A stretch of DNA of 64,000 nucleotides from Sphaerolaimus hirsutus. Lineage: Eukaryota; Nematoda; Chromadorea; Monhysterida; Sphaerolaimidae. Both the position numbers and the translations under genes were made by a program. The stretch covers positions 7,444,529-7,508,528 of the forward strand of contig OZ038451.1 of assembly GCA_964036195.1 (NCBI GenBank), given 5' to 3'. This document shows, in pieces, positions 4,741 to 49,100 of this stretch. How positions within the stretch are numbered: position 1 is the first letter of the stretch; every line of letters begins with the position of its first letter. Below the pieces are notes generated by a model. It worked only from the letters and a program-made list of their open reading frames with translations, made no database searches and had not been told where the DNA came from.

Positions 4741-5062
4741 TTCGCTTTTACACATTCTTAGACAAAAAGTACTCGCTTTTACATTCTCTAGGAAAAAGTA
4801 GTTTTACTCACGTTTACTTATGAGTATAAATATAATAAAATTGACAGTAATTTTAACAACAACAACAAGTCTAGCCTGCCTTTAACGGTTTGTTTAAGAC
4901 CTGCAGTATCAGTGAGGGAGGGGGGCTATTCAAGGGGGGGGGATTACTTTTTCGTCCGCCGCCTCACTTTCACATCACCACCCAGCCAGATGTAAACCTG
5001 CGAACACAGTGTAAAGTGCGACCGAAATTCGCAGTGCACCCCATTCGTCCTAGGCGCATATG

Positions 5063-5265
5063 GTGCCAATCCCAGACCCTGTAAAGTGTAAAGTAAAGTG
5101 TCAAATGCCATGTAAAATGTCAATTGTCAACTGCCATGACAAATATAAAGTGAAGTGTAAATTGTCATGCAAAGTTCAGAAATAAAAATTTTTTTTTTTG
5201 TTTTGATTGACATTTTACATGACACTTGACACTTTACACTTTACAGGGTCTGGGACCGGCACCTG
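5063..5265. repeat. TGACACTTTACA-family element (copy B), 8 bases before the globin start codon
   Basis: It starts GTGCCAATCCCAGACCCTG and ends GGGTCTGGGACCGGCACCTG, a near-perfect inverted repeat, with the standard TTTTTGTTTTGATTGACA spacer in the middle. The globin ATG is at 5274, so the element either replaces the 5' untranslated region or forms a 5' UTR intron. Confidence 0.7.
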
Positions 5266-5273
5266 GTTTCGAG

Positions 5274-8200
5274 ATGGGCTCAGTTGGCAGCTACCTGACT
5301 CGAATCTGGCAGAGCAGGTGCCAGTTCCGCAAGTGGACAAGTTAAGAGTTAAACGTTAAAAGTTGAGTGAAATGACAAATGGCGAGTGAGGAGTAAAGTT
5401 AAAGTTGAAGAGAAAAGTTAAAGTTTAAGAGAAAAGTTTAAATTTAAGAGTTGAGTTAAATGTTGAGAGTTGAGTTAAAGGTTAAAAGTTGAGTTAAGAG
5501 TTAAGAGTTGAGTTAAGAGTTGAGAGACAAGTGGAAAATGGTGGTAAAATAAAAAAAACTAAATAAAAATGTGAAAGTGGTATCGATACCCCTGTTCGCT
5601 GGCATGGTACCAATGTTGAATGCACAACATTCGAAAATAACGTATCCAAAAAAAATATCGCTAAAAAATAAAAAAAATCGCGGGACAGTGTTGCAAAATG
5701 GTGTTCACTGTTCACTTATGTTGGATTTAGAAGGAAGCGTTTTTTGAATAGGCCCTCATTTTCGGTTCCGAAATTGCGACGCAGCTGGTAAATCGGTGCC
5801 TGCCGCTGAAATTCCTCCGCGTTGGAATCACCGTTGGAAACAACGCCCTCAAGATCCGAATTCATTTTTTGAATTTTTTTTTTATTACATTTTTCCCCCA
5901 TTTGTCTTTTAAATCAACTTTTAACTCACCTTTTAACCTTTAACTCAACTCTTAACATTTAACTCAACTTTTAACATTTAACTCAACCCTTAACTCAACT
6001 CTTAACATTCGACTCAACTTTTAACTCAACTCTTAAACTTTAACTTTTCTCTTAAACTTTAACTTTACTCTTAACTCGCCATTTGTCATTTTACTCAACT
6101 CTTAACTTTTAACTCTTAACTTGTCCACTTGCGGAACTGGCCCCTGGGCGTCCGGCGCGCACGATTGCGATTTGGACGTGCCCAGAATAAAACGCGTTTG
6201 GAGAGAGGTTGGATTGGTCTGGTTTAACGTATTTACGTATTTCCACGAAATACCCCCCCCCCTTGAATTAACCCCCTCGAAAAAGCCAAGGTCTGAACAA
6301 GCTGAGGAAACAATACCCCCCCCCCCTCGAAATACCCCCGTCTGGAGTGATGTTAATAATGTATAAAATGTATTGAGATGATGTATTTATTGGTGCCAGT
6401 TTGCATCGCAGCAACCCATATACTGGTGTATGTGTAGCGATGTACGTTTGTAAATACCGTATTACCTCAAAATACCCCAAGGGGGTTTATTATTTCGCCA
6501 GCAAATTTTCAGGGGGGTAATTCGAGAGGGGTGAAATTCCACATACTCAGACGTAGAAAAGTCAGACAATTACGTAGATGTATAGAGCGTATCCTTTACT
6601 ATGAAGTTTACGAAAATTTCTGACGGAAGAATAATCGCCTTCAATTAAGCCCCCCACCCCTATTCATCCCCCTACTTCGAAATACCCGTCCCCCTTCAAA
6701 ATTTACACTCTGAAAAAATGATACCCTGGGGGTAATTTAGAAAAATACTGTAATCGTTCGATTATCGCATCGCAGCGCATCAAACAAAACGACATGTTCT
6801 TCGAGCACGTGTACGAAGTGATGGTGGGGAAGGACTCAAACATGGCCAAGGTGTTCCTGCCGTCCGACCGCTGCAACAGCGACGAGGAGAAGAAGTTCGT
6901 GATGAGTCAACTAGCTGAGAATATTTTGGTTGGTGATGGCTTTTTTAGTTTATGTCGTTTTTCTTCTAGTTGAAAGCACTCCCTAATCGATAACTACCTA
7001 TATTGTTTCTAAAAATTAAGCATTTTTATTTGTAATTGTCCAAAAATAGGTAGCAAAATTTTGATTAATCGTTTTTATCTTGAGAACCGCTGGAGCTTTT
7101 TGAATAATATTTGGACACGATAGATATCGGTTACTGCTTTCGACCTGTCAATTGATATCTGTAAAATTCTTGAATATTTCTAATTTGTCGAAGCTGTATT
7201 TGTCGTTTCACATTTTATATGTCGTTATTCTGTAAATCCACCGTTAATACAATCTAACCCCAACATGTCAATACAGTAAACTTGCAGGAGTTCCTGGGCG
7301 GGATCGTGGAGGGCGATGAGAACATGCTGGAGGACCCGCACAAGCTGGCCGACCACTGCTTCCTGTGCGGCATGCGGCACGCCGCCTACTCCAACGAGCA
7401 CTTCAAGGTGGTCGATAAGTTCGCGATAAATCAAAAACTATTGTTGTAGTAAATGAAAATGGAGGTGTTTCGAGAAAATATTGCTTGTCTGGTAACAATT
7501 TATAATCGAGGTGATGCCAATTAATCTCTTTTTTTTGGAAATTTCGCTGTCCAAGTAAGGTTCGGCACTAGACAGCGATAAATTGGCTGTAATTTTGATA
7601 TCTGGCCACTTATTAATAATCACAAGTTGAATTATGGTGACTTTTAGGTGATAATTGAAGTTATTCGTGATTCCCATGAAGAATTTTCAACTAAAGAACA
7701 CCCCAGTGGACATTCATTGGAGGTAGTGATGGAAATGCGCCATGGCGCTTTGGCGCTTGGCGCTATTTTGTTGTGGCGCTTGGCGCAGCACCCATAAAAA
7801 GCGCCATAGCGGTTTTGGCGCTCAGAACTATTTTTCTGTGGCGCCATGAACAAAGTGCCTGGCGCTTGGCGCTAGCGCCAAAGCAAAAAGCGCCATGGCA
7901 TTTCTCGAGCTTGGCGCTATTTTGCTCTGACGCCATTCACAGCAAAAAATCGGCGTGTGATGCGCGGTGAAGTGTCCTGAAGTGACTTTACGCAGACGCG
8001 CAATGTCGGCGTGAAGCCACTTCACTGCATTCCAGATGCTTCACGGCACTTCACGAACCATGCAAAGTATGCTGCAAAGGTTCGTGAAGTGCACTTCACG
8101 ACTTTCGATCTTCGTGAAGCTAGGTGAAGTGAGTGGAAGACACTTCACCGAAAACTTCGTGAAGTGAGTGGAAGTGTCTTCACAGAGCGCACTTCCACAC

Positions 8201-9811
8201 ACTTCACGAACCCATTTTTTGCTGTGATTGGCGCTTGGCGCTGGGGTTTGGAAAAGCGCCATGGCGCTTTTGGCGCTTGGCGCCGAAGTTCTCGCACTTT
8301 TTCCATCATTAATTGTGTGTCAAAGCAAAAGTTGTTCAGCAGGCTGATTTTTGGTTCTGCGATTATGTCATCGCATTGACCCCCATTGAAAGTCATCGGG
8401 GGTGCATTTTTAGGCAAAATCCTTTACATTTTCAACTTAAATCATTCAATAAACGTAACTGTAAATCAAATTGCAAAGTGTGTGTTCAAAAGTGCCTGGA
8501 TATGGATATTTGAACTGGCACTTATTTTGCCTCATCAGTTTAACATCAAAGTCCAATCCCCTGCCATGTACAATACCTCCCACTCCCCTCCCCACAACAG
8601 CTGGAATTACAGCCAATTTTTTCATTGCCGGATCCGAACCTGGCTTGGACTACAAAATTTAAACAGAAAAGTTTTATGAGTGGTTGGTTTTAGTGATTTA
8701 TCGAGTACCAGTCCTGATCCCAATAGGAAAAATCTGGTCCCGGTACCGGCCCAGCTAAAACCTGGTCCCATTTGAACCCTACACGAAATTCCCCGCGGCC
8801 CCCACGCAGGTGGTCTACTGGGACGTGTTTGTCCTGACAGTGACGCAAGCGCTCGAGGAGCAGGCCAAACACGAGCTGCAGCACGGACAGGTGCCAATCC
8901 CACACCTTGTCAAGTGTAAAGTAAAGTGTCAAGTATCATGTGAAATGTCAATTGTCATGACAAATGTAAAAAAAAGTGTCAAATGGCATGCAGAGTTCAG
9001 TAACAAAACCTTTTCTTTTTGTTTTGATTGACATTTCACATGACACTTTACTTGACACTTTACAGGGTCTGGGACTGTCCCCAGGCGAAGACTCCACCTG
9101 GAAACGGCGGCAATGGACACAGGCAGCACCCGCTCACTTGCAGGGACATACTCGCCTGGCAACAGTTTATGCGCTTTGTGGCGGATCAGATGCGTATTGG
9201 TGAGGGGTTGCTTTTTTGTATTGTGTGTATTGACTTTGGGTCAGGGTATTGTGGTCGGGTTCGGGTAGTTGAGTCGGGTTCGGGATCGGGTATCTTGTCT
9301 AGGTTCCAAAAAATGTGCGGGTATCGGGCTCGAGTCGGGTCAGCTCGGGTTCCCACCCTAGTGTGCGTAGCGCCATCGTCATCACATCACGTGTATGTCA
9401 CGTGACTAGTGATGGAAAAGGCACCGGGAAATATAGCACCGCACCGCACCGCACCAGCACCGGTGCCAGTCCTCAGAAAGGGCACCTGGCACCATGGGCA
9501 CCGGTTAAAAAATGGCACCGCCACCATGGGGGACACAGGCTGGCTGCCCCTGCTAGCACCTTTTGCACCGGCAAAAAAAATGACACCGCTCCGCACCGGC
9601 ACCGGTGGTATTCTGAAAAAATTGCACCGGCAACGGTAGGGCACCCTCGAAAAAGGGCCCTTCGGTGCCCCGGTGCCTTTCCATCCCATCACTACACAAA
9701 CACGTGACCACGCCAGGTTACGAGCGCGGCCGCAGCGTGGAGGAGGACATGCACGCGAACGCGCTGCTCCAGCTCAAGCAGCAACAGAAGCATAACGATG
9801 ATGAGGATTGA
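5274..9811 (+). CDS. Globin (haem-binding, possibly N-myristoylated)
   Basis: Seven exons join in phase: 5274-5317, 6186-6207, 6776-6928, 7288-7407, 8810-8890, 9085-9199 and 9717-9811 (TGA), about 209 residues. Globin features in order are an A-helix (IKRVW), then MFFEHVYEVM leading to a proline region, and an E helix in FVMSQLAENILEFLGGIV with Gln or Ser where distal His is usual. The proximal-His F helix is CGMRHAAYSNEHF; the G helix is VVYWDVFVLTVTQAL; the H helix is ILAWQQFMRFVADQMRIGYE. The last two match the family patterns H-x-x-Y-x-x-x-x-H-F and AW-x-x-F-x-x-x-x-x-x-M-x-x-GY. The start MGSVGSYL has Gly2 and Ser6, the N-myristoylation pattern seen in membrane-bound globins such as globin X. 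A ~20-residue Gly/His-rich insertion sits at the G-H corner, and a charged, Gln-rich tail ends the chain. The 22-base second exon is the least certain part, but it is the first AG after the repeat and keeps phase. Confidence 0.82.
5318..6146. repeat. AACTTTAACTC-family inverted-repeat element forming most of globin intron 1
   Basis: It starts GTGCCAGTTCCGCAAGTGGA and ends with the complement, TCCACTTGCGGAACTGGCCCCTG. Arms are runs of GAGTTAAGAGTTAAAG and complement, around a ~350-base unique core. The first base is the G of the globin exon 1 donor (AGCAG|GTGCCA). It shares its outermost ends with the TGACACTTTACA family but has a different interior. A related copy starts near 56461 in which the core is in opposite orientation. 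Confidence 0.75.
6232..6752. repeat. CGAAATACCCCC-type repeats in globin intron 2
   Basis: 6232-6365 is a truncated copy (ACGTATTTCCACGAAATACC then C-runs). 6456-6752 has both ends (TACCGTATTACCTCAAAATA and TTAGAAAAATACTGTA). No coding signal. Confidence 0.5.
7724..8311. mobile_element. TAGTGATGGAAA / GCGCCATGG hAT-like element, interrupted by another element
   Basis: It starts TAGTGATGGAAATGCGCCATGG and ends GCACTTTTTCCATCATTA. The arms repeat GGCGCTTGGCGC. Flanks ATTGGAGG and ATTGTGTG match at 6 of 8 positions, a decayed 8-bp duplication. It lies in globin intron 4, with a different element (7938-8226) in its middle. Confidence 0.6.
7938..8226. mobile_element. CACAGCAAAAAATGGGTG-type element (GTGAAGTGTCTTCAC arrays)
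   Basis: It starts CACAGCAAAAAATCGGCGTG and ends ACCCATTTTTTGCTGTG. The interior is alternating GTGAAGTG and CACTTCAC motifs. Other copies occur near 22317, 35140-35378, 47651-48034 and 62384-63192. No ORF. Confidence 0.65.
8891..9084 (+). repeat. TGACACTTTACA-family element (copy C) that is exactly globin intron 5
   Basis: The 194-base intron starts GTGCCAATCCCACACCTTGT and ends GGGTCTGGGACTGTCCCCAG. The two ends are inverted repeats of each other and match copies A and B end to end. Exon 5 ends ...CACGGACAG and exon 6 starts GCGAAGACT; both sides are in phase 0 and the reading frame into the H helix holds only if exactly this sequence is removed. Confidence 0.75.
9225..9361. repeat. CGGGTATCGGGTTCGGGT-type repeat, truncated
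   Basis: GGGTCAGGGTATTGTGGTCG through CGGGTTCCCACCCTAGTG repeats the sub-terminal motif of the full element at 24690-25842. It ends in CCCTAG as that element does. In globin intron 6. Confidence 0.5.
9407..9694. mobile_element. TAGTGATGGAAAAGGCACCGG element (GCACCG arrays)
   Basis: It starts TAGTGATGGAAAAGGCACCG and ends CGGTGCCTTTCCATCCCATCACTA, with repeated GCACCG and CACCGGTGCC inside. The same TAGTGATGG ends carry GCGCC arrays elsewhere, so this is a sibling with a different amplified motif. No exact target duplication. Confidence 0.6.
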
Positions 9812-14400: not shown

Positions 14401-17400
14401 AAATATCGAATTTTCCTTCGCCATATTCAACTCCTTGTTGCGATCCCTCCACACGTTCAATTCATCAACACACCTGCTGCAACGAGTGACTCTTCACCGC
14501 AGCTTCAACCATCTGCCTCAAGCCCTGCCTGGTCTCCTCGCCCTCCAACATCTTCCTGTAGATGGCGATCTCCGTGTCCAGCATCTGCTTGGTGTCGAGC
14601 AACGACTGCAGCTCGGCCACCAGCATTTGACACTCGTCGCGCATTTTCCTGGGGGGGGGGGGTTAAGGTATGTGTCGTTTTGAGGAGTGGGGGCGATCTT
14701 GCACCCCTATACAATGTGACGCGAGTTTGTAAAATGTCATAAAGGCGAACCACACATTTAATTGTTGAATAGTGTGTCAACTCAGATTTCGGTTTCACGT
14801 GTCGCACAGCGATCTACAATTTTTCAACATTGCTTAAATTTGAGTTGACACAGACCAGTTGACAGACATGTGTCAACTTGTGTGCGGGCTTCATAAATGA
14901 AAAATTGCCAAGCATTCGACATTTTCCATTGAAATTTTACAAATCCGAGTGACATTCATTTATTTTTTTTGTCACGCAGCCCGCCGCCGCTCTGACCTGA
15001 GCTGAGCGTCTCTGTCATTGAGAGCGGCCTCGTACTGGCGCTGGTCATCCTCCAGTTGGTACGTGAGCTCTTGCACTTGCTTCTCCAGCATTGCATTCTG
15101 CGCGAAAAGTCCAGATAAGTGTGAATTTGCAATCATGAGGTACTCCTAGAGACTGTAAAATGTCCTGTAAAATGTCAAATGTCATGCAGAAGACCGTGGA
15201 ATATGTAAAAAGTCATGCAAAAGACCGTGTAAAATGTCAAAAGTCATGTAAAATGCCATGTAAAATGTCTAATGTCATGTAAAATGCCCTGCAAAATGTT
15301 AAATGTCATGTATATGTCCTAGTATGTGGCAAACTCGTTTACCATTTTACACTACTTTTGACACATTGCATGACATCTTACACTTTACAGTGCATTTATT
15401 TTGCAGGCTCTTGAAGCTGCAATCAAGCGTTCATTTCCCAACCGCCCCAGCACCCACCTTGGCCTCCATGTCGGCGAGCTTGGAGCGCACGTCGTTGATG
15501 TTGTTGCGCATGCGCGTGATCTCCTCCCGGGTGAAGTTGCCCTCCACGTTGCCGCGCGACGCGCCCGCCTGCACCTCGCTCACCTGCGGGGGAAATGGGG
15601 TAGAGTAGATTGGGTTGGCTTTCTTGGTGATGTGTCAAATTACCGGTGGGATTTTTGATAGTGTTTGAAATATTTTTGGGAGGTTTTTAGTTAAAAAAAG
15701 AAAATAGTTAAAAAAGTATTTTATTTGTTTGTATTTTCTCCAAGCTTTTCATCATAAGTTTCATTATACTCTCTGTATGAGTAGAAAATATAAGATATCT
15801 CATTTATGTTTTGTCCCTTCTTTCTCAGAGAGATTGAGTTATTTTATGTTTGATGATTTTCTGGGATTTCTGATTTCATTATATTGTATTTAACAATTTG
15901 TTCCTGAAAATCACCCATTCTTGTAAGGCTGATCTTCCACACAATAGACAAAAAAACAATTACAAAAAAACACAAACTCCGCCCACCTTCAATTTGTACC
16001 AGCTTTCCATATCAGCCTTGGCTTGGTGCGCGATGGCCTCATACTCATCCTTGATATCTCTGATGGCCAGGGCGAGCTCGTTCTTGAAGAAGTCCTTCGT
16101 GTCGGCCGGCTGGCTGCTGAGCAGTGCCTGTGCAGGTTTACTGGATTTTAAATTGAGTTGCAAATTTGGGTGCGATGCGATGAGATGAATATTTATGATC
16201 CAGTGACTTGACCCCTTGCACGCGTTGTCCACTCTGGAAGCGTGCCAACTGCCAATGATTTGTAGCACATGTGATTTTCAGAAATGTTAAAAAATTGATC
16301 GCCGTTTCAACACTTTATGCTAATGCATTCACAACAAAAAAAATTTCATCACTTGACAAAAAATTCACCCTTCAATCATCATTGGCACGGTTCCAACATG
16401 AGACACAACACAAGTACCTTCGAGTGCACAGTATCAAACCAGCCCACTAAACACACCTGCAACTCCTTGACTTCCTGATCGTGCACGCGGCGCAGAAACT
16501 CCAACTCCTCCATGAGCGTCTGCACTTGGTTCTGGAAGTCGATACGGCCCATGGTCTCTTGGTCGAGGTCCTGCGCAGTGACAAATATGTAGGTGGTGAA
16601 AATGTTGAGAACCATTTGAAGACAAAATCTCCAGAGTTGTTAGAATTACTGAACTTTTTTAAAAGTATATGAAAACGTAAAGTTTTTTTCACTCACCACA
16701 AAGTATAGAAAACGTAAAATACTTTTTTTTACTCGTACGTACGCGTAAATGTGGGTACTTTTTTGTGAGTGTAGAAACGACTACTTTTCTTCATAGAATG
16801 TGTAAAAGTGGCCACTTTTTCATACGTGTACAGCACAACGTATGTTTTTCTATAAGCAAATGACAGATTGTATAGTTTTCAAGGTCTCTTTTTTCTAGGA
16901 GATAAAAATCATCGTTCTCCCGACTCATTTACCAGATCCATTGTCTCCACAACCATTTCGATTTGGTTGCGAATTTTGAAATTTTTAAAAGCACTACACC
17001 CGCATATCTAAAATATTCAATGGAACCACTTCTGTAAATACATAGCAGTGTAGTTACTTTACAAATATGTCCCACATTGAATTTTCATAAATACATTTTC
17101 CATACGCGTACGCTTTAAAAGTGTACGCGTACAAGTGTGTACGGTATTGTTTTGAAAGGTATATGTAAATGTATTTTTCGAGTAAATGTACGTACCTTTC
17201 AACAACTCTGAAAATCTCTTCTAATTTTGTTTTGATTGACATTTTACGTTACATTTGACACTTTACTTAACACTCACAGGGCTTGCGACAACTTTCACTT
17301 ACTAAAACAGAACTTGCTTGGGACATGCTGGTATCGCCGCTCGGCTCCATTTTCCTATCTTTCCGCCAATCCAAACTACCTATCTTTTTTCATCAAGTTA

Positions 17401-20400
17401 CACCCAAAAAAAAACCATCCAACCTTCCTAGCCTTCTGCAGCTCCTCCCAGATCTTCTTGTTGTCCTTGTAGTACCTGTTGTACTCGTCGGTCAGGTGCT
17501 TGTACCTGGAGCGGAGCATCTCCGCCTCCGACTGGCACTCGGCTATCATCGTCGTGAAACGGGAGATCTTCTCCGTGTCCGACTCGCGAGCCGCGTTGGT
17601 CAGTTCGAACCTGCGGGGGGGGGGGGGGGGGTGGGGGTTTAAAGGGGGTAAAGGGGGGTTTTGACGGTTTGTGTGGCATTTGATATTTTACAGGGTTTTT
17701 CTACAAGACTTTTGACACTTTGCGTGACATTTTTCATGGCATTTTACATGATTTTTGACAGTTTGCATTACATTTGAAGACATTGCGTGACATTTCGCAT
17801 GTCATTTGACATGACTTTTGACATTTTACATGACATTTTACAATGCGTTTACTTGACTTTGGACGATTTGCAGTGCATTTGACATTTTACAGTGCATTTC
17901 AGATAAGTTCTTCTGGTTTTCTTCCTCAGATTGGATATATTTAGACCTTTTGGATATATCCCATCGAAAAATGAGAAAAATCTAAAAACCTTCACGCACA
18001 GTCGCACACCACAAACAAACAAAAAAACAAACAACCCAACCCCCCCCCCCAACGCACAATCTCCTATACTCGCCCAAATCGTCATTCAACCTAGCCAACT
18101 TGACCTCATAATCCGCCCTTTGTCTAGCCGCTTCGTCCATAGTCTTGCGCGCGTCCGCTAACTGGCCTGCGTATTTTGTTTTTATTTCGCTCGTGTCCTT
18201 GCCCCAGTGACCGCGGAGATCTTCTAACTCGGCTACCATGCGCCTGCGGGGGGGGGGGGGGGTTGGCGGTGTGCCAAGTGTGTTGAGTTGACGAATCAAA
18301 TGGGCGATCGATACGGATTTTGGAAGTGCATTTTCCTCACGCAATTACGGACTATGCCAACAAGAATGCTTTTAACCGAAAACATGCTAATACCGTATTT
18401 ACCTACTTAAATACCCCCATGTCTGAGCGGCTCCGCACCTGTACGCACAAACGCCCGGCGCGCACAAACGCCTGGCACGCACAAAATGGAAGTCCGGTAC
18501 GCACAAACGCCCGGTATGCACAAAAATTGTAGCTGTATGCGTGCCAGTCGTTATGTATTTGTATACTCCAGTCACTTTACACCCTGCACGCGTGGTTCCC
18601 GCTGGAAGCGTGCCAACGATGTTTTACCCATGCGATTTTCAAGGTTGAAAAGTTGAAAAAAGTCATCTCTCTAACGATACTCATTTACTCTAACGATACT
18701 TATTCACACAATGATTTCTCTCATGTTTTATACAAAAATCGCATGCTTTATCATCGTTGGCACGCTTCCAACGTGAGACATAAATGAGTGCGAGGGCAGA
18801 GTATCATATCCGCCGAGTATAACGTTGCCACCAATCTCACCGAGTTTTTGAGTGCATGTTGGGTGCATTCACGTGTATTCACGGTACGCACAGAGCAGCA
18901 GATTTGTGCGTACCGGACATTTGTGCGTGGCGAGCTCAATTTTGTGCGTGCCGGGCGTTTGTGCGCGCCGGGCGTTTGTGCGTAGGAGGCCTGGCCCGTC
19001 TGAGCGAGCTTATTAAAAATACCCCCACCTGAAATGAGTGTAAAGAGAATGTAATGGCCGAAAAATACAGGAAATTCGAGGAAATACAGTAACCCCTCCC
19101 AAACCCAACCTATTCTGTTCCTCCAACCCCTTGACCCTGTCAATATAGGCGCCCAAACGGTCATTCAGCGACTGCATTTCCCTCTTCTCCGACTCGGCCG
19201 ACGTGAGGAACGTCGCCACGGCGTTCTTGGACATCTCGGGGCTGATGCCGGTCATGCTGTGCGTGCCCATCTCGGTGACCAGTTTGAGTACGCGGCCTGA
19301 GGGGGGGGGGGGTTGTGAGGGGGTTATGGTAGGGGTGAGGGAGTGAGGGGTGGGAATGAGGGTTTTTTAGATCTTCAAAGATTCAAGTTCAAAAGTCAGG
19401 TTCCTAAAATGACCGGTAAAATGACAAATGACATGCAAAGTGTCAAAACTCATGTGAAAAGAACTGTAAAATGACAAACTTACGTTTGCCATTTTCCATG
19501 GCATTTTCAATGACTTTTCACACTTTGCATGACATTTGATATATTCCAGGGCATTTTACATGACATTTCACATTTTACATGACATTTCACATTTTCCAGA
19601 GTCTTTTACATGACACTTCACACTTCACATGACATTTTACAGGCTCTGGAACTGCCCCCAGGCGTGTGGGTAGATCGGCTAACTTCCAGGGCCTAGGTCA
19701 TCGAAGCCCCTGCCCCTGGAGCGGCTGCGCGACCGCTGGTACGACATGGCCGTCTCGGCGTTGTAACGGGACCGGGACATTTTGGGGGGTTGATTTGAGT
19801 GGCTTTGTATTTAGGTTGAATGGGGGTAGTGGTTTGGGGGGGGGGGTTAAATAGAGTGCGCTGCGACGATGAGAAACGCCGATGAAGCGTTTACCGTATT
19901 TCTTCTAATAGAACGGTATAACTCTTATAGAAGGACACCTCCAATAGAACAGCAGGTTTTGGCGTGTTTTTGCAGGCACGGAAACAATAGAACGCCACCT
20001 CCAATAGAACGGCAGGTAAAAATGTTGACGAAAAAATAGAACGGTCCTCTTCTTTTAGAAGAAATACAGTAAAACCAATGTTAGAAGGTTGAAAAGTCGG
20101 TGATATGATTTTTTTGTCCTGGAAATATTTGATATTCTGCAATTGAATGAAATTTTTGTGAGGAGCCAATTGACTTCAACTTCGTCATGTGACTGCACGT
20201 ACTGTTGCATAAAATTTTACAATTTCAAAGCATGAGAATTGCGCATTATACTAAAATAACAGTGGGATGGGCAACATGCATTTTGGAACATGCCATATTT
20301 TATATGCTATATTTTATGCCAAATATATTTACCTATACTTCACATGTGTGTTTCTGGTTCTAGCAGCATTACCATATTTCTCCGTGTAAACCGCCCGGGT

Positions 20401-23483: not shown

Positions 23484-23658
23484 CTGGTGTCAGTCGCAAA
23501 CCCTGTAATATGTCAAAAGTCATGCCAAGTGTCAAAATTCATGTAAATTGCCCTGCAAAATGGCAGGCAACCCAGTTGCCATTTTGCAGGGAACTTACAA
23601 ATTTACATGACTTTTTACACTTACATTTGACATTTTACGGGGTCTGCGACTGTCCCCA
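23484..23658. repeat. TGACACTTTACA-family element (copy I)
   Basis: It starts CTGGTGTCAGTCGCAAACCC and ends GGGGTCTGCGACTGTCCCCA. It lies about 120 bases upstream (minus-strand sense) of the intermediate filament ATG at 23365, so it occupies the promoter or 5' UTR. From 23659 to 23951 nothing recognised. Confidence 0.6.
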
Positions 23659-28259: not shown

Positions 28260-31200
28260 CTATTCATAATCATCATACCTATCATACACATCACTTTTCT
28301 TATCACTAGGCTTGGGCAATGGCGTGTCATCTCTGTGCAACTTCCTCCCAAAGCTATTTTTGCTCCTTGGTCTACCATTTCCACTACTGTCTGGAATTTG
28401 ATAGGGGGGGAATTTCTGATAATAAAAAGGATCCAAGTTTGGGATTGAGTGTGAGAGTACAGCCCTTTATTTTCAGCTTTGTGGTTGTGTAGTTCCATTC
28501 CACAATTGACAAATTTTTTCTCTCTCAAAAACTCAAGGTGTTCCAAAAATGTTCAAAAAGTGTATTCAATGAAGTTCATTGAATTTTTCATGTTTCCATT
28601 CAATCATAGTAGCCATAGATATCAGAAACTAAACATATTAGAAACTCCACACATAAATGCACCCCTCCCCCCAACACAATCCCCAACCTAAAAAATAAAT
28701 ATAATTCTAAATATCTTAATAAAATTCCCATTTACCATTTCTCTTGTCCCTGTTGTGCTTTGGTTCCACCTCTGGTTGTGGTATAACTGCCTCAGTATCA
28801 TTGTGTTTCCTTCTTCTAGAATTTGCTTTTGCTGATTGTGGCCTGTTTGGAATGGATGAAAGTTTGTGATGTTTGTTCAAACTTCAAATCATGCTGTCAG
28901 GTCATTCAAGTGTGAAATTTCATTTGAATATCATGCAAACCTTAAATCATATGTGGCTGCTCAATTCCGGATCCTTTAAATTGAAATGATCTTGAAAAAT
29001 CACTAGCAACTAGGTATATGAAAAGATTTTCACACCAAAAATACTGCCTACTCAATGTTAACTTTATACTGAAAATTTTCCACAATCCATCTGAAATGTA
29101 AACAATATTACCCATATTTATAACCAAAATTTGGTACTGGCACTTCTGAAAATTGCAGGGGCGCTGCAAAAGCCCTTTTTTACAGCACCCCTTCCCCCAC
29201 ACAGTTAATCTGACATAGTGATGGAATGGCGCCATGGCGCTGGCGCCATTTGAGGGCCCCAAAGGGCGCCGCGCCATGGCGCCATTGGCGCTTGGCGCCC
29301 TTTTTCTGTGGCGCCCTTGGCGCCTGGCGCCCACTTTCTGAAAGGCGCCATGGCGCCCTTGGCGCTTGGCGCCCTTTCTCCGTGGCGCCCTTGGCGCCTG
29401 GCGCCCTGCCCTAAAAGGGCGCCAAAATGGCGCCAGCATGGTTTCAAGGTGAGTGCTGCGTGAATGAATAAAAAAGAAAAAAACGGGTCTGTGAATGATC
29501 AAAATTCACTGGAAAATAGACAAAGTGGTGTGAGTGGATGTATATGTTTCATCCAATTTTTATAAGATGCGCGTAACGGATCAGAAGCTGAGCATGAGAG
29601 ACCGGTGAACTTGCAAACTTGTAAATCAACGGATTGAAATTATCGGAATTCCGTTGTCGTCCGCTTCATGTAAACATATTGGAAAATCTATTTGATGTGC
29701 ATTCATTGTTTTGTCGAATGAGAATTTTCAAAGTGTTTGAATTGAATATCACGTGTGAGTACGGTTTTTGCACAAAAGTTTTTCGCTAGTCTCATTTTTG
29801 CTGATTACATCCTGGAGAACATGAATAAAGAAGTGAATGTGTGCACTACAGTGCTGGAGAAGCATTTTTTGGCACACGCAGGGTATTCTACTCGCTTTTT
29901 TATTCTGGCGCCATTGGCGCCTGGCGCCCTTCTTTTCAATTGGCGCCATGGCGCCCTTGGCGCTTGGCGCCCTCTTTCCGTGGCGCCCTTGGCGCCTGGC
30001 GCCCACTTTCCGAATGGCGCCATGGCGCCCTTGGCGCTTGGCGCCCTTTTTCTGTGGCGCCCTTGGCGCTTGGCGCCCAGTTTCCGAATGGCGCCATGGC
30101 GCCATTGGCGCCTGGCGCCATTTTTTCTGGCGCTTTTCCATCACTAATCTGACATCAGAGCAAAGTTTGCGAAGTGCACCTCCAAAACGATGTTGGCATA
30201 TTTTGCATGCTTCAGGAAGTGTGTGAAGCAGCCGTAGTGATAGTGAACTGTCTGTAGTTACACTGAATTGCCATGAAGCCACTACCAAACACTTCATGGC
30301 ACATCACACACTCATATTTAGCTGTGCATTGCTACACATTAATTTTTAAAGTAATTTTATTGGAATGTTTCTGTGCACACTAAATCAGCACAGATCAATT
30401 TTACACTGCAAAGTGATATCATAAATGACACACCTGTCGGCTTGATATGTGTCTTTATAATCAGGACTGGCATTGTATCTGTCTCTGTCATAGTCCCTGT
30501 TCTTTTGATAGCTGTGGCTGTCACTTTTGTTTAGCTTCTCTCTGTTGTATTTGTCATCATTTTGTTCATCATCATAGCTTTCATATTCATAATCATTCCT
30601 GCTGCTGCCTTTGTGCTTTCTGTTTTTGGAGGATTTGTCTGAAAAATGGGCGCATGTGAATGTGAATTGTGAAGGATAGAAACTGTTGTTAGTAACTGTA
30701 GAAATGTCAGTAACTTTTGAAAATATTTGATTGTCTTACTCTTTAATCACTGACTGAAGTGACCTGACAAAATGGTTTAGCATGTGTAACAATCTAGGTT
30801 CTCTGGGAATATCAAAACATGAATATAAATATATATATATATATATATATATTTCAATTAAATATATATTGTGCGTTGTGATTAGTGATGGAATGGCGCC
30901 ATGGCGCTGGCGCCCTTTACCTAATGGCGCCAAAGGGCGCCAGCGCCATGGCGCCATTGGCGCCCTTTTCTTTGGCGCCATCTGGCGCCTGGCGCCATTA
31001 TTTCGAATGGCGCCATGGCGCCCTTGGCGCTTGGCGCCATTTTAGCTGGCGCCCGGCGCCATTATTTTGGATGGCGCCAGAAATGGCACCACAGTGTCGA
31101 GCTGAGGGGTTAAATTTTTCAATATTCTAGTGGAAAAATCTGTGAATTATATCATTTAAATGGTATTTTACACATTTACTATGCTAATTTTTGATTATAA

Positions 31201-34200
31201 CACAAACTGCAAATCGTCAGATATGCCCACCATTTGAAAATAACGTCAATTAGCTCAACTAAAGACACAGTTGGAGTAGATGTGGGTCAACGCGGGGGCC
31301 CACAACCCCAAGACACAGTTGAAAGAGCAAGTTTTTTGCACAGAGCTGAACTGAACATGCATCACAAAAGGTCCCAGGTGGTGTGCACTTGAAACCTAAC
31401 AATCACGGGTTTGGTGACAACCCCAACTACACTACTACTCAACTGTACATATTTGGGTGGCCTTCAGAAGTCATTTTGGAAGAGTTAGATTGTTTGAAAA
31501 TGCATTTTCATAGTTGGTTATTGATAATGTATCAGGCTGGCAAAACCCTGATCATGCACTACATTATATAATTAAATGGTAGAAGGTCTGGCGGAATAGT
31601 AATTCTCCCTTCAGATACTTACCAATGAAAAAGTGCACTTGAAGAAAAGTAAACAAAAACCAATAGAATTGTGAGTGGTACAAATATGATTTTTTTATAA
31701 GTATACCACATTTCCTTGAAATACCCCCCTCGAGTTAGGTACTTCCAGGTCTGCGTGAGCTGGAGAAAAACAGGCCCCCTTGAAATACCCGACCTAAATT
31801 GAGTGTAAAGAGAGCATACAATTGACAAAAACTACAGTTTGTGATCCGTATAATGCACTATGCATGCCAAACACAAATGACACATACCACATTTCCTTGA
31901 AATACCCCAGAGGTTTATTAATTCACCAGCAAATTTTGAGGGGGTGTCAATTCAAAATGGGGCTTAGTCGAGAGGCGGGGTTATTATTTCACCAGCTGGT
32001 TCTGACCTGGCTAAATTGCTGGCGAAATAATCAATTTACATATCAAATAAGACACCCCCACTTGGAAAAGACCTATGAATTAACCCCCCTTAAAATGTTT
32101 GGTGAAAAAATAAAGCCCTTGGGGGTATTCGCAGGAAATATGATTGATTATATTCATTATAAAATGAGTTTTTGTGACTATTCACCATCAGAAAAACGGT
32201 ATAACACTTTGCTGTTCTATAAATGCTTCTGTGACGATATACACGCTGAAATACAGAATTTTATTGTTGGCGCCATTTTGGCGCCTGGCGCCATTGTTTC
32301 TGGCGCCCTTTGGCGCCCAGCGCCATTTTGTCAGATGGCGCCATGGCGCCATTTTCTCTGGCGCCCTTTGGCGCCCGGCGCCAATTTTTTGAATGGCGCC
32401 ATGGCGCCATTGGCGCCCGGCGCCTGGCGCCATTTTTCCTGTCGCTTTTCCATCACTAGTTGTGATATTAACTGTAATTAAGTCTATATTGAAAAACATT
32501 CCTACTGCTTCAGTGATAAGACTCACAATGATTATCTGGCATGGGATCTGGAGGTGCTGGAGAGTCATTCTGCTCATCAAAATCATTGTCAGAGTCATTT
32601 CCTGTCTTCTCATTTGTTAGCCCATCCTCATTTTCTGGCGATTTTTTCCTGTTGCTACGTCGCTCCTTCCTTTGCGTGTGTAAAAATAAAATGTGAAATG
32701 TATCTAATGATCTTTTTGATTATGCATGATATACAATTCATCATTTACCTCTGCACTTCCATAGTTTCGCCCATCTTTTTGCCTGTGAAATGTTCAAATT
32801 ATATAAAATATGAGTGCACAAATAAAATGAGGCAATAGCATGCCAAAAAAAATCAGTTTTTAAGAAACATACCAAGCATACACAATTCACACTCTGAATC
32901 ACTGCACTCTGTTGGCTGCAGATCGAAAGTTGCCATATCAGATTTTGCATTTGCATTTTCTGACCTCTTGTCGCGCTTCTCTTTTCGCTTTCTTGGCTTT
33001 GCAGATTCATAAATCAACCTTAAAGGTACAGAATATTTGACTGAAAGTTACATTGAATCCAAAAAATGCTGCTGACAGTCCAATATTTACCACTTTTACT
33101 GAAGAATGACTACTCCTAGGATTTTACGCCAATACAAATGATGCTGCAAACAAAACATGAAACAATGATGAGGTGAACAAGCATCCAGAGATCCTTCAAG
33201 AAATCATTACGACCCTTCTTTTTCAGTTTACATAGTAAATATCATTGTTTTGTATAGGTACCGTATTTCCTTGAAATACCCCCCGGGGGGTGATTGGTTC
33301 ATAGTGGTCCCGAGAGGGGGGGGGGGGTGTTAAACGAGGGGGGTATTTCGAGGGGGGGTTATTATTTCGCCAGAAATTTTTTCAAATCCTAGTACAAAAT
33401 CGTCGTTTGTGATGTACACTGAGGTAGAAAAATGCATCAATAACTGACATGTATAGACTCCTGTAGACTAATAGTATTACGTAGATGGTATAAACATTGT
33501 TCTAACGTGATTACGACATTGTTTTAACGTGTGTTCTGCACTACGCAGAACACAAACTGCAGTATTTGTCATGTCTCTTTACACTCAATCTGGGGGGGGG
33601 GTATTTCGAGGGGGGGGGTGATTGTTTCATAGTGGTCTCGAGAGGGGGGGGGTCAAACGAGGGGGGGGGTATTTCGAGGAAATACGGTAGATGGATTTGT
33701 AAAAAATCCAGAAGCCAGACAGAGGGAACCAGAGACTGTAAAAAACCTGTAAAATATCATGTATCATGTAAACCCTGCAAAGTGTCATGTAAACCCTGCA
33801 AAGTGTCATGTACATCCAAATCTTTTTCTATTGTATCAAAATCTTTTGTTTTTGACTTAACATTTGAATACTATAAAGTTTTGGATACTATAGAGGTTTC
33901 TATACTATACAGGTTTCGATACTATACAGGTTTAGATACTATAGAAAAAGATTTGGATACACATGACAATTTGCAGGGGGGTTTTCATGGAACATGACAT
34001 TTTTCTAGGGTCTTTTACATGGCACATGCCATTTTACAGGGTCTTTTACATGGTCTGAGACTGGCACCTGCAGAGGCACTTGGCGCCGTGGCATAAATAT
34101 TGCATTATCGAGTAAATGGATGGTATCATCCATCTAAACACAGTGACTACTCACGGTTGGCAGTTGTGACAGGAAGAAGGTGTCCTGAAGTCGCCATCTG

Positions 34201-43176: not shown

Positions 43177-46100
43177 TTAGAATCCCCACCTACTTTCACT
43201 AATTGTCTGTTGTTGCTTGCCAAGTGCAGTCCATTGGCCATTGTTTCCTCTTGCAACTCTCTGTAGTGCAGCTGAAAAAATACAGCAAAAATTTCACGTA
43301 CAATCTAATGATATCTCTTACAATATTACACTATCAATCAAACCTTATTTGATTTGGTTAGTATAAAAAGATATTTACTGCAAGTTTGCAAAACAAACAA
43401 ACCAGCATTGTAACTGCCTTTGGTGCCACCAGTCTGAGCGCCATAACTACTGCCACCAGTCTGACCAGTATAGCTACCACCTCCTGTGGATCCAACAGCT
43501 TGCCTACTATAGCTGCCTCCCACTGTGGCAGCACCAGTCTGACCACCATAGCTGCCACCTCCTGTGGTGCCAGTTTGACCACCATAACTGCCACCCCCTG
43601 TGTCACCTCCAGTCTGACCACCATAGCTGCCACCCCCTGTGTCACCTCCAGTCTGACCGCCATAGCTGCCACCTGTGTTTGCTCCCGTTTGACCACTGTA
43701 GCTGCCACCTCCTGTGGCTGCACCAGTCTGACCACCATAGCTGCCACCTGTGTTTGCTCCTGTTTGACCACTGTAGCTGCCAGCTCCTGTGGCTGCACCA
43801 GTCTGACCACCATAGCTGCCACCTGTGTTTGCTCCTGTCTGACCACCATAGCTGCTACCCCCTGTGTCACCTCCAGTCTGACCACCATAGCTGCCACCAC
43901 CTGTAGCACCACCAGTCTGACCAGCATAGCTGCCACCTCCTGTGGTTCCTCCTGTCTGACCACCATAGCTGCCACTGCCTGTAGCACCACCAGTCTGACC
44001 AGCATAGCTGCCACCTCCTGTAGTTCCTCCAGTTTGACCACCATAACTGGCACCTCCTGTAGCACCACCAGTCTGACCACCTGTTGAACCAGTCTGACCA
44101 CCATAGCTGCCACCCCCTGTAGCACCACCAGTCTGACCAGCATAGCTGCCACCTCCTGTAGTTCCTCCAGTTTGACCACCATAACTGGCACCTCCTGTAG
44201 CACCACCAGTCTGACCACCTGTTGAACCAGTCTGACCACCATAGCTGTCACCACCTGTAGCACCACCAGTCTGACCAGCATAGCTGCCACCTCCTGTGGT
44301 TCCTCCTGTCTGACCACCATAGCTGCCACCCCCTGTAGCACCACCAGTCTGACCAGCATAGCTGCCACCTCCTGTGGTTCCTCCTGTCTGACCACCATAG
44401 CTGCCACCCCCTGTAGCACCACCAGTCTGACCAGCATAGCTGCCACCTCCTGTTGTTCCTCCAGTCTGACCACCATAACTGGCACCTCCTGTAGCACCAC
44501 CAGTCTGACCACCTGTTGAACCAGTCTGACCACCATAGCTGCCACCACCTGTAGCACCACCAGTCTGACCAGCATAGCTGCCACCACCTGTGGTTGCTCC
44601 AGTCTGACCACCATAGCTGCCACCTCCTGTAGCACCACCAGTCTGACCACCATAACTGCCACCTCCTGTAGCACCACCAGTCTGACCAGAATAGCTGCCA
44701 CCTCCTGTAGTTCCTCCAGTCTGACCACCATAGCTGCCACCCCCTGTAGAACCACCAGTCTGTCCAGCATAGCTGCCACCTCCTGTGGTTCCTCCAGTCT
44801 GACCACCATAATTGGTACCTCCTGTAGCACCACCAGTTGACCCAGTCTGACCACCATAGCTGCCACTCCCTGTAGCACCACCAGTCTGACCACCATAGCT
44901 GCCACCACCTGTAGCACCACCAGTCTGACCAGCATAGCTGCCACCTCCTGTGGTTCCTCCCGTCTGACCACCATAGCTGCCACCACCTGTAGCACCACCA
45001 GTCTGACCAGCATAGCTGCCACCTCCTGTGGTTCCTCCAGTCTGACCACCATAATTGGTACCTCCTGTAGCACCACCAGTTGACCCAGTCTGACCACCAT
45101 AGGTGCCACTCCCTGTAGCACCACCAGTCTGACCACCATAGCTGCCACCACCTGTAGCACCACCAGTCTGACCAGCATAGCTGCCACCTCCTGTGGTTCC
45201 TCCCGTCTGACCACCATAGCTGCCACCCCCTGTAGCACCACCAGTCTGACCAGCATAGCTTCCACCTCCTGTTGTTCCTCCAGTTTGACCACCATAACTG
45301 GCACCTCCTGTAGCACCACCAGTCTGACCACCTGTTGAACCAGTCTGACCACCATAGCTGCCACCCCCTGTAGCACCACCAGTTTGACCAGCATAGCTGC
45401 CACCTCCTGTGGTTCCTCCTGTCTGACCACCATAGCTGCCACTGCCTGTAGCACCACCAGTCTGACCAGCATAGCTGCCACCCCCTGTAGTTCCTCCAGT
45501 TTGACCACCATAACTGGCACCTCCTGTAGCACCACCAGTCTGACCACCTGTTGACCCAGTCTGACCACCATAGCTGCCACCACCTGTAGCACCACCAGTC
45601 TGACCAGCATAGCTGCCACTTCCTGTGGTTCCTCCAGTCTGACCACCATAACTGGCACCTCCTGTAGCACCACCAGTTGACCCAGTCTGACCACCATAAC
45701 TGCCACCACCTGTAGCACCACCAGTCTGACCAGCATAGCTGCCACCTCCTGTGGTTGCTCCAGTCTGACCACCATAGCTGCCACCTCCTGTAGCACCACC
45801 AGTCTGACCACCATAGCTGCCACCACCTGTAGCACCACCAGTCTGACCAGCATAGCTGCCACCTCCTGTGGTTGCTCCTGTCTGACCACCATAGCTGCCA
45901 CCCCCTGTAGCACCACCAGTCTGACCACCATAGCTGCCACCTCCTGTAGTTCCTCCAGTTTGACCACCATAACTGGCACCTCCTGTAGCACCACCAGTCT
46001 GACCACCATAGCTGCCACTCCCTGTAGCACCATCAGTCTGACCAGCATAGCTGTCACCTCCTGTAGTTCCTCCAGTCTGACCAGCATAGCTGCCACCTCC

Positions 46101-49100
46101 TGTGGTTGACCCAGTCTGACCACCATAGCTGCCACCCCCTGTATCACCGCCATCACTGCCTCCTGTATATCAGGTAACATTGGGAAAAAGTGAAAAATAA
46201 TTTTGAGTGAAAGTGTTGGTAAAATTACAAAAAAATTCTGCCTATGTAGCTAGCTGAGAAATTGGGATGGTTTGTGTGCTAGTATCCATCCAAATTACCA
46301 GCATAAAATTTGTTGCCACTGATAGAAACTTTTCTCACGTCAGATGGAAACAAACTCTGCAGAAGAAAATATACATTTTTTATGTGTAGTTGTTTCTGTT
46401 TCTGTGTAGTTGTTTCTGCAAGGACCTATCCAGGAAGCATTGAGGATGGGGAGGCTGCAGCCCTCCCTTTCCCATGATGTGAAAAGGAAAATTCAGGAAA
46501 ATGCAACTTTTTCTTGCATACATCGATTGCATAGGCGGCGTAAGTGCTTGTGCGCTTCTGAATGTCACAAGCGGAATTTTCGGTGTCACAAGCAGAAATA
46601 CCTAGTTTACCTAGTAAAAAGTGTCACAAGGTCAAATTTTGGCCAATGTGATTGTGAATGTCACAAGCACAAATTGGGACCTTGCGCCGCCTATGATCGA
46701 TTGCATACAAATGTTGCATGCAACCAGACAATTTCCTATTGCACATACGGTATGTACACAATGTATACAATGTACAAGATGTATTAAATGCTGCCAAATT
46801 ACATAGCAGCCAAACATAAATATACTAGTCTGGGCAGATATATCCATATATATTTACATAATCCACATCACCATTTATTTATATATTATACCATTTGTAT
46901 TCATTTGTTACCAATTTCGCATTACTTTTGGCTTATTTGTTACTACTATCCTTCATAAAATTTTCTGACAATTTAAAAAAGCCCCCCTGGAATTAACCCC
47001 CCTCCCCCCCCCCCGCCGTAAAGTTTGCTGGCAAAATAACAGACTCCTTAGGGGGGGGGGGGTTCGAACTGATATGGTATATGGAGCCATTTGCACCTGT
47101 CTTTGTAGTATTTTTCTGGGCCAGGTATAAGGTACAAACAGGATCCCAATCCCAAATCCTGAGAAATTTCAGGATTTTGTGGTCCCGATCCCAATCCCGA
47201 AACCTCAATCCTGATCCCAAAATTTGAAAAAGCCAATCCCGATTCAATCACAAGATTTTGAAAATCCCAATCACTATCCCAAAAAATGCCTGAATCCCGA
47301 TCCCCAAAAAATTCACAGACACAAAAGGTGCCAGAAATGGTACTTACAGGGCCATTTTGTATGCAGTTTGCAAAAATATTGCACGCAAATGCGCATTTCC
47401 CCACCTCCCTCTCTATCTGTTGGCATGGACACCACTACAAATGGACTCGATACAGTGCCCATTACCATAGTTTAAGGTGAATACACATGCATATATGGTA
47501 GACAGTGGTGTGAATGACAATGCCAGGCAGCCCATTGCACAGTGCCTAAATGAATCCTTAGCATTGTTTTGTATGCCAATTAAAACCAACATTTCTGGCA
47601 GCTATTGTTTTGGTGTTTTGGGTCATTTTGTGAAATAAAAGGAAAAAAACCACAGCAAAAAATGGGTGTGTGGATGCGCGGTGAAGCGTCGGGAAGTGTC
47701 TTCACGCCAACACTTCCCGAACGCTTCACCAAGCATGTCAGCGCTTCCACACACATCACGAAAAAATGCGTGAAGGCACTTCATGCTTCTTAATATCGAG
47801 CTCCCACGCCAATTTATATGCGGGGGAAGCGTGTGGAAGCGCCAGCGGCGTGAAGTGTGTTCCACATGTTTGGATGCCCGTGAAGCGTACGGTGAAGATA
47901 GGTGAAGCGTGTGGAAGACACTTCACCCAGAATCTCATGATGTTGGTGGAAGCGTGTGGAAGCGTGTGGAAGCGTGCCGCTTCACGCGCATCCAGCCCGC
48001 TTCCACACGCTTCACGGATCTATTTTTTGCTGTGAACCCTGAAAACCATATTTTAGGCTTAAATCCTGATCTCGAAAAAATGCCAATCTCGATCCTGATC
48101 CCGAATGGTCAATCCCAATCCTGATCCCGTAAGCTCAAAAAGGGCAATCCCAATCCCGATCCCGAAAGGCCAATCCCGATCCTGATCCCAAAATCTCAAA
48201 AAAAACAATCTGGATCCCAATCCCGACCCCGAAAAGTCAATCCCGTTTCAACCCTAGCCAGGTCTACACAATAGTGTGGCAATTTAGACCAACACTTTAG
48301 ATTTTGAGTAACTTGACACTGGGTGGTCGGATGAAAGTCAGAATTGAGGTGAACAACTAAATAGGTCGTTTCCACAAAATATGGCTGCAATAGCTCAACA
48401 GTGTCACAAGTTATTTACGCAAACATCAATAATTGTCGCTTTACTGCCACCTCTACCACCAACCTCTGCCTCTACCACTCGGTAGCATTTGTGTACTGAT
48501 AAGAGTGGTGGTTACATTGAGTGATCATTTGTTGTATTGTGTGTGTGGTGCACATCACTTGTTCATAATAAAAATTTTCCAGTGGTTATTGTGCATTGAC
48601 ATTGATCAATGCCTATTGTCACGAGGTGTCCGTACTTCGGTAGTGACGATTACGCGTTTGCGTGAATAACTTGTGACTGAGTGGAGCTATCACAGCCATA
48701 TTTCGAGGGAACCTATCCTATTTAGTTATTAATGTTAACCTAAATTTTGACATTCATCCGACAACCCAATGTCAAGTTATTCAAAATCGTTGGTCTAAAT
48801 CGCCGCACCCTGTATATTTTGCAAGCAAAAAACAACCCCTCCCAAACCTGGACATTGACACTGACAAGTTCCAGCATCTCTGCCATAAGAGGTGGCCACG
48901 GGCTGGGCAGCTTTTTGGTCATATTGCTGCTGTGTCTGCTGCACATTGTATGGAAAGTCTCTGTACCTGGAGCTGAGCACCCAGTGCGTCAGGCTGCCCA
49001 CTTCTGAGTGGTGGGTGGGGGGGGGGGGATTTTGAAACTCATTGTTTGTATATTGAGGGATACTCAACCGACATCACACCATAGTTGTTAAAACATATTT

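Follow-up and report, generated by a model that had tools for sequence, protein, structure and literature searches.

We analyzed a 64,000-nucleotide stretch of the genome of the nematode Sphaerolaimus hirsutus (contig OZ038451.1, positions 7,444,529 to 7,508,528 of the forward strand; hereafter the window), and we propose that a 194-base element at positions 8891–9084, inside a gene best named as a globin gene, is very probably one copy of a short, non-autonomous, intron-making DNA transposon. The origin of new animal introns is an old open question; here the source, its insertion rule and the putative resulting introns are visible together in one genome, which carries 1824 copies with a perfect left end.

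The element constitutes an entire proposed globin intron on the forward strand, GTGCCA...GTCCCCAG, and comprises the transposon together with the right CAG of a target duplication. As a preliminary description of the window had stated, the 194-base repeat begins GTGCCAATCC immediately after ...GGACAG and ends TGTCCCCAG before GCGAAG, and its ends form an inverted repeat, which we find to be imperfect (55 nt, 78%). The left CAG of the duplication (8888–8890) is the end of exon 5, the left terminal inverted repeat (TIR; 8891–8914) starts with GTGCC and provides the donor GT, and the right TIR (9059–9081) is followed by the right CAG (9082–9084), which is the proposed 3′ splice site; the globin copy thus has CAG at both duplicated triplets. 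Folding of 8891–9084 with 20 flanking bases on each side gives a long hairpin (z = -7.25; 0 of 200 shuffles were as good). The genome assembly contains the element at 100% match (C2:7453419-7453612). An Rfam scan of the window gave no match, and viral contigs yielded nothing when searched with a TIR pattern or at the protein level.

The family is very abundant in the 348-Mb nematode genome. Exact left ends occur 1001 times after CAG (525 + 476) and 823 times after CTG (413 + 410), with no match to the reversed-pattern control in either case. Allowing up to three mismatches, the left-end pattern has 9666 + 9589 matches, a count that takes in right ends, which lie about three bases off the pattern; the reversed pattern again has none, which excludes chance. 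A first look at the genome had listed 1490 candidates, 40 of which were scored. For closer analysis, 90 CAG-left and 40 CTG-left copies were fetched (of 100 listed in each class), and no right end was found in 18 and 4 of these, respectively, leaving 108 copies (72 CAG-left and 36 CTG-left). The sample comes from the beginning of the assembly (C1, C2 and the start of C3) and is not random, and the list behind the CAG sample omits some minus-strand places.

Insertion at CWG, i.e., CAG or CTG, duplicates three bases. In the sample, the left CWG is fixed by the search pattern and the right triplet is free; the two are the same in 81 of the 108 copies, from which we conclude that the element duplicates CWG. 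Right triplets are CAG in 58 and CTG in 6 of the CAG-left copies (n = 72), and CTG in 23 and CAG in 9 of the CTG-left copies (n = 36), giving a Fisher p = 7e-10 for the CAG/CTG cells of the left and right triplets. The view that there is no target duplication, taken from the W base that differs between the ends of most copies in the window, was overturned by these 108 genome copies.

We evaluated exact excision, which removes the element together with its right CWG, by means of the reading frame, using a codon model built from genes in the window and requiring that both flanks look coding (main setting: 45-nt windows, threshold 0). With exact excision, the frames of the two flanks match in 34 of 44 coding-like copies, against an expectation of one third (p = 3e-9), and over nine combinations of window and threshold p ranges from 5e-10 to 4e-5, the lowest share being 30/46. 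At the main setting, offset 0 is found for 16 of 18 CTG copies and 18 of 26 CAG copies. A joint score of both flanks favors the exact junction in 12, 11 and 10 of 18 CTG copies at windows of 45, 60 and 75 nt, as compared with at most 7 for either shifted junction, and in the 58 CAG..CAG copies the exact junction leads by 27 to 15 and 16 (60 nt) and by 24 to 13 and 17 (75 nt). As for strand, the codon test assigns 21 copies at CAG sites as sense and 5 as antisense.

Several of the frame results weigh against our interpretation. At 45 nt, the joint score of the 58 CAG..CAG copies does not favor the exact junction over the shifted ones (23 vs 22 and 20). When the coding filter is removed, agreement among the 72 CAG-left copies is no higher for the sense strand (31, 34 and 32 at 45, 60 and 90 nt) than for the antisense strand (36, 32 and 36), so the frame test by itself gives no strand. 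The codon strand test yields 7 sense and 5 antisense calls at CTG sites (first 18 copies), and it misfiled one copy that is sense by Pfam (L104); codon scores separate strand poorly. Finally, three pairs of sampled loci (L054/L055, L058/L060 and L090/L091) carry the same element within nearly identical flanks and are therefore duplicates made after insertion; copies are accordingly not all independent, and the frame p-values are somewhat too small.

Protein domains provide a second line of evidence. From the 108 copies, 39 coding-looking sense joins were run against Pfam, and 14 of them reached the cut-off at the join (5/10, 2/9, 1/10 and 6/10 per batch). Six of these are among 20 CAG-left joins: L015 (LRR_6), L025 (cation ATPase), L028 (calpain), L032 (PID; right end moved one base on by hand), L040 (filament) and L071 (matrixin, E = 4.6e-29). 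The other eight are among 19 CTG-left joins: L104 (Oscp1, E = 4.4e-17), L108 (CHGN, E = 8.8e-13), L123 (Srx chemoreceptor), L125 (E1 dehydrogenase, E1_dh), L126 (cyclin), L127 (permease), L137 (calpain III) and L138 (AMP-binding). The matched stretch crosses the junction in 13 of the 14, in L015 by three residues; L028 has one domain on each side of the junction, and a PDB match crosses it with small gaps. Gap-free PDB alignments run across the join for the Na/K-ATPase (3.3e-22) and for the branched-chain dehydrogenase of L125 (4.6e-13). Read-through of the element meets a stop codon in each of the 14 verified copies, and in all eight that end in AG, exact removal corresponds to an in-frame GT-AG intron with nothing added. 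No antisense join reached the Pfam cut-off (0 of 10; one match at E = 0.038 lies below it), where the ten were taken from 12 copies among the first 90 with an antisense score that was higher and above 0, the second CTG batch lying outside this set; L104 and L105 were read as sense and left out, and L105 has no Pfam match in the sense direction. On the other side of the balance, 25 of the 39 sense joins gave nothing at the cut-off.

The preliminary description had suggested an introner-like element, and had asked how many genomic copies end at splice sites. The sampled copies agree with splice-site ends as judged by sequence, by reading frame as well as by domains, and the introner reading is supported by flank frames that agree on exact excision in 34 of 44 copies and by a domain at the join in 14 genes. 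The 14 verified among 130 fetched copies set a floor of about 11 percent, which would correspond to roughly 200 introns among the 1824 perfect-end copies if the sample is representative. Copies are alike from end to end, and in the verified copies the element ends coincide, by sequence, with the exon ends. The GT comes from the left TIR and the CAG from the duplication; with a right CTG, only the GT is canonical.

In one case, the exon can be compared with an uninterrupted counterpart. The intermediate filament gene in the window has an exon (16457–16570, minus strand) that carries the paralogous empty site of copy L040, GATCAG/GAAG (slashes mark junctions); read from 16570 to 16457 it contains GTGCACGATCAGGAAG, with a single CAG. 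The filled paralog reads GTGCACGACCAG, then the element, then CAG/GAAG, and its flanks are identical to the window exon at 49/60 and 13/18 positions. This argues against the idea that the transposon invaded an old intron in the GH loop of the globin gene without being the maker of that intron. Such a history would suit the published record: GH-loop introns are frequent in nematode globins, the GH interhelix holding 9 of 76 C. elegans globin intron positions (PMC2228317), and nematode globin orthologs have introns at GH2.0, GH2.1, GH4.2 and GH6.0 (PMC2576238). This frequency counts against a newly made intron at 8891–9084, yet because nematode globin intron positions vary greatly, the position neither proves nor disproves one. 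Against an old intron stand (i) the coincidence of element ends and exon ends, as in 14 other genes, with no old intron sequence beside the element, (ii) the empty site inside the exon of the filament paralog, and (iii) the different appearance of copies in older introns, since those at 2260–2453 and 19395–19661 sit within longer introns (by eye). We consider invasion of an old intron highly improbable.

The globin gene extends from 5.3 to 9.8 kb on the forward strand, with its start codon at 5274. Exon 3 (6776–6928) is followed by exon 4 (7288–7407; helices E–F), by an intron before VVYW at the old G7.0 position known from vertebrates (by eye), by exon 5 (8810–8890; G helix, ending in phase 0), exon 6 (9085–9199; GH loop and H helix) and exon 7 (9717–9811), which includes the stop codon. 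Globin, as the gene had been called at the outset, remains its best name, but the matches behind it are all sub-threshold. Exons 3 to part of 7 match Pfam Globin at E = 0.045 (14.7 bits, cut-off 22), and Pfam Globin was reported neither for the splice form with the whole of exon 7 nor for the 209-residue full model. Glycera globins match the predicted protein at E = 0.2 to 0.34, aligned at helices F–G, and the F8 histidine and the G and H helices fit a globin (by eye and from the Glycera alignment). Searches of a large protein database found no globin relatives.

Based on the sequence, exon 5 is likely joined to exon 6 at 8890/9085. The exons on both sides are in phase 0, as originally described, but the accompanying claim that only exact removal keeps the H helix in frame was wrong: of the 204 GT..AG pairs that span 50 nt or more, 45 keep the frame and meet no stop codon, and 33 of those 45 have their donor at 8860 or later. 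Under a profile built from the window's 15 inferred donors, the donor at 8891 scores best of those before 9000 and of all in-frame pairs. It is used by each of the three top-scoring in-frame pairs, and of their acceptors 9084 has the best pyrimidine tract (0.53, vs 0.47 and 0.29). Synonymous codon use in the 59 bases at 9085–9143 favors the frame that results from exact removal (+0.36, vs -0.35 and -0.47).

There is a competing possibility, namely that the family is an introner but that the globin intron runs from 8891 to 9126 or lies partly within the element (e.g., 8914–9065 or 8921–9084). Besides the 45 pairs that keep the frame, four observations tell against the exact junction. With a score of 0.41, the donor GTGCCA is weaker than every one of the window's 15 inferred donors, which range from 0.7 to 7.1. 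A stronger-looking acceptor, TTTACAG, is found at 9065, 19 bases upstream of 9084; it is out of frame with 8891, and its pyrimidine tract is the richest (0.71) of the in-frame acceptors. The full codon score of 9085–9143 gives no frame (-0.12, -0.03 and -0.12), and of seven variants tried against Pfam Globin, a match was reported for a single one, that using acceptor 9126 (15.7 bits, still under the cut-off). A long loop is no argument for 9126, since GH extensions of C. elegans globins measure 17 to 40 residues (PMC2228317). Given that the three best in-frame pairs share donor 8891, with the best tract at 9084, and that a protein domain emerges on exact removal in 14 other genes, we regard a different globin junction as unlikely, though less so than the invasion of an old intron.

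For the element as an intron maker, the copies at CTG sites pose a particular problem. Six of the eight verified CTG-left copies (6 of the 14 verified) would be GT..TG introns, and CTG-site copies thus break the GT-AG rule, which speaks against the introner reading. They nevertheless pass the same frame and domain tests as the copies at CAG sites; their use as a negative control for exon insertion was dropped, as they were themselves found in exons. The smallest in-frame, stop-free GT..AG alternatives inside the TG-ended elements would add 45, 51, 51, 51 and 9 bases, and the dehydrogenase copy L125 has no such alternative when donor and acceptor are scanned inside the element only. The right triplet has switched from CTG to CAG in 9 of 32 copies and from CAG to CTG in 6 of 64 (p = 0.03), which hints that AG is better at the 3′ end but not required. 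This leaves two readings: TG is used by the worm's spliceosome, or removal is independent of AG. The introner reading as first put forward is supported, but it had not foreseen the TG-ended copies.

The main rival for these copies is removal from DNA rather than RNA, as with the internal eliminated sequences of ciliates, where TIR-directed excision would leave one CWG, be it CAG or CTG. By the frame test, CTG copies are no less often exonic than CAG copies (16/18 vs 18/26), and most CTG copies have no AG; a precise cut between the CWG repeats would be expected of a transposase-derived nuclease. Excision from DNA should, however, ignore strand, and all 14 verified copies are in the sense orientation while none of the ten antisense joins gave a domain. 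Moreover, the copies are present in the assembly, and many of those sampled have non-coding flanks (29 of 72 fall in the lowest coding class). We therefore view DNA elimination as improbable, only slightly less so than an old, invaded intron. Whether TG is tolerated as a 3′ splice site genome-wide, with about equal insertion at CAG and CTG, hundreds of introns, a large share of constitutive GT..TG introns and a loosened AG rule of the U2-type spliceosome, appears to us evenly balanced.

The introner reading suggests the following mechanism. As the left end starts with GTGCC, the left CWG of a sense insertion is immediately followed by a GT. The C-rich right end, ...TGCCCCC, runs into the duplicated CWG, so an insertion at a CAG site ends in CAG; right end and duplication together read TGCCCCC-AG, and a sense insertion at CAG gives CAG/GT...CAG/, an exact GT-AG intron. 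Removal of the element together with its right CWG would restore the exon exactly, as indicated by frame and domains in the sampled genes, and in the globin gene would join exon 5, ending in CAG at 8890, to exon 6 at 9085. This removal is probably carried out by the U2 spliceosome at the RNA level, and the terminal hairpin may help by drawing the ends together; in copies at CTG sites, TG would have to be accepted as the 3′ end. A U-rich tract is the usual end of a nematode intron. The CAG-ended insertions resemble, by eye, the C-rich ends of five of the eight introns in the filament gene, where up to about 16 consecutive C precede the CAG.

The GT of the left end may itself derive from a GG start that is still present at the right end. 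Comparison of the left TIR, GTGCCAGTCCCAGA, fixed by the search pattern, with the inward reading of the right TIR, GGGGCAGTCCCAGA, shows two differing bases, and the GT results from one of them. The right TIR starts with G at 93, 85, 90 and 85 percent in its first four positions (80/90 copies with a right CAG or CTG), and the left one with GTG, as fixed by the pattern. CWG duplication and a GGG start of the TIR mark the NuwaI elements of the PHIS (PIF/Harbinger, ISL2EU, Spy) superfamily (Han et al. 2015, PMC4482050), and from its sequence the family looks like a PHIS/NuwaI-type miniature inverted-repeat transposable element with a left end starting GT. PF13359, a PIF/Harbinger-type transposase family, has 163 matches in the genome. 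At two of these loci (L139 and L140) a search of 1.5 kb around found no right end or inverted pair of this TIR (for L140, on the basis of end patterns), each locus having one short left-like match, and neither links a transposase to the family. Dozens of PF13359 matches have near-equal scores, with four in-frame TGA codons in a 633-base match to 147 model positions, as would be expected if the DDE domain were split by an intron of about 190 bases.

At least four other copies had been noted in the window, all with similar ends; this applies to 2260–2453 and 5062–5263, which have both ends, whereas the copies at 19398 and 33727 show clear likeness at the right end only. A further, diverged copy with both ends lies at 23486–23657, like those at 2260–2453, 5062–5263 and 19395–19661 on the forward strand. 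The copy at 2260–2453 lies within a longer intron of an UNC93-like gene (named by eye) and is not an exact intron. That at 5062–5263 is found just 5′ of the globin gene, ending about 10 bases before the start codon, and its TTTACAG could be a 3′ splice site of the leader or a trans-splice site. The copy at 19395–19661, whose left end is eroded, sits within the first intron of the filament gene in antisense orientation and is likewise not an exact intron. The filament gene itself occupies 14460–19800 on the minus strand (from about 19.8 to 14.5 kb) and has nine exons, its product being an intermediate filament protein. A search with this protein gave 414 matches; among the best 120, the top two (2.4e-191 and 5.2e-191) and many others are environmental proteins, the best named one is from Meloidogyne (E = 8.7e-187), and every legible species name is that of a nematode.

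A second family is represented in globin intron 1 (5318–6146, forward strand), with a left CAG and a right CTG. Exact removal keeps the frame, as does, equally, a canonical AG about 36 bases further on (by eye). This family has the outer bases in common with the first but a different core, CWGGTGCCAGTTCCGCAAGTGG; the family has 1278 + 1287 genome matches at up to two mismatches, and the control none. Elsewhere in the window, an open frame at 2–934 has a weak match to a viral fusion glycoprotein (Pfam PF24664, E = 5e-5, 21.9 bits vs 27) and is followed by sequence resembling a long terminal repeat (by eye); it is probably an env-like gene of a retroelement. A 943-residue open frame at 43341–46169 (minus strand) consists of a repeated GGSYGGQTGGATG-like unit with a period of 39 bases and has no Pfam match, and palindromic repeat arrays rich in GGCGCC (TGGCGCCATGGCGCC) are present at 29271–32433 and other places.

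Introners are families of similar introns that derive from non-autonomous DNA transposons, many of which have TIRs and duplicate their target, and include a case with its own 5′ splice site and a 3′ one from the insertion site (Gozashti et al. 2022, Fig. 2C; PMC9860276). The present family shares with them the similar introns, here putative, made by a transposon, the TIRs and the duplication; mRNA length is unchanged in most families of that study. Introners of animals and plants are given there in two groups only, both of them animals, and the word nematode is absent from its main text; what differs here is the nematode host, the 3-bp CWG duplication and the TG-ended copies as putative exact introns. 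For intron gains in Caenorhabditis, source sequences were not found (PMC9169325), and nematode globin introns showed no similarity to other genomic sequence (PMC2576238). As judged by titles and the beginnings of abstracts in the open-licence literature, there is no report of introners in a nematode, Gozashti and others 2025 (PNAS e2414761122) being outside this coverage. With NuwaI elements the family has in common the CWG duplication and an animal host, and their GGG start matches the right end GGGGCAG, whereas the left end here is GTG; NuwaI hosts are bony fish, a beetle, a crustacean, a mollusc and an anthozoan, and introns are unmentioned in the parts of that paper covered (PMC4482050).

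With respect to the AG rule, the paired CAG and CTG sites amount to a natural experiment, in which one element, having a 3′ AG at some sites and none at others, occurs in many genes at once, so that the strictness of the rule is directly testable. The non-canonical introns of larvaceans are linked to transposons. Splicing in larvacean tunicates, e.g., Fritillaria borealis, is massively non-canonical, the U12 spliceosome has been lost, as it has in nematodes, and introners with weak splice sites have been named as a possible source of splice-site divergence (PMC13326754). The two systems are alike in having abundant introns, here putative, outside the GT/AG rule in an animal that lacks the U12 spliceosome; in the present family, unlike in larvaceans (PMC13326754), the 5′ GT is constant and only the 3′ dinucleotide varies, the insertion site determining whether it is AG or TG. 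Human U2 introns also use TG at the 3′ splice site, as an alternative in 36 genes (Szafranski et al. 2007, PMC2374985), but whereas those are alternative sites, TG would here end whole introns.

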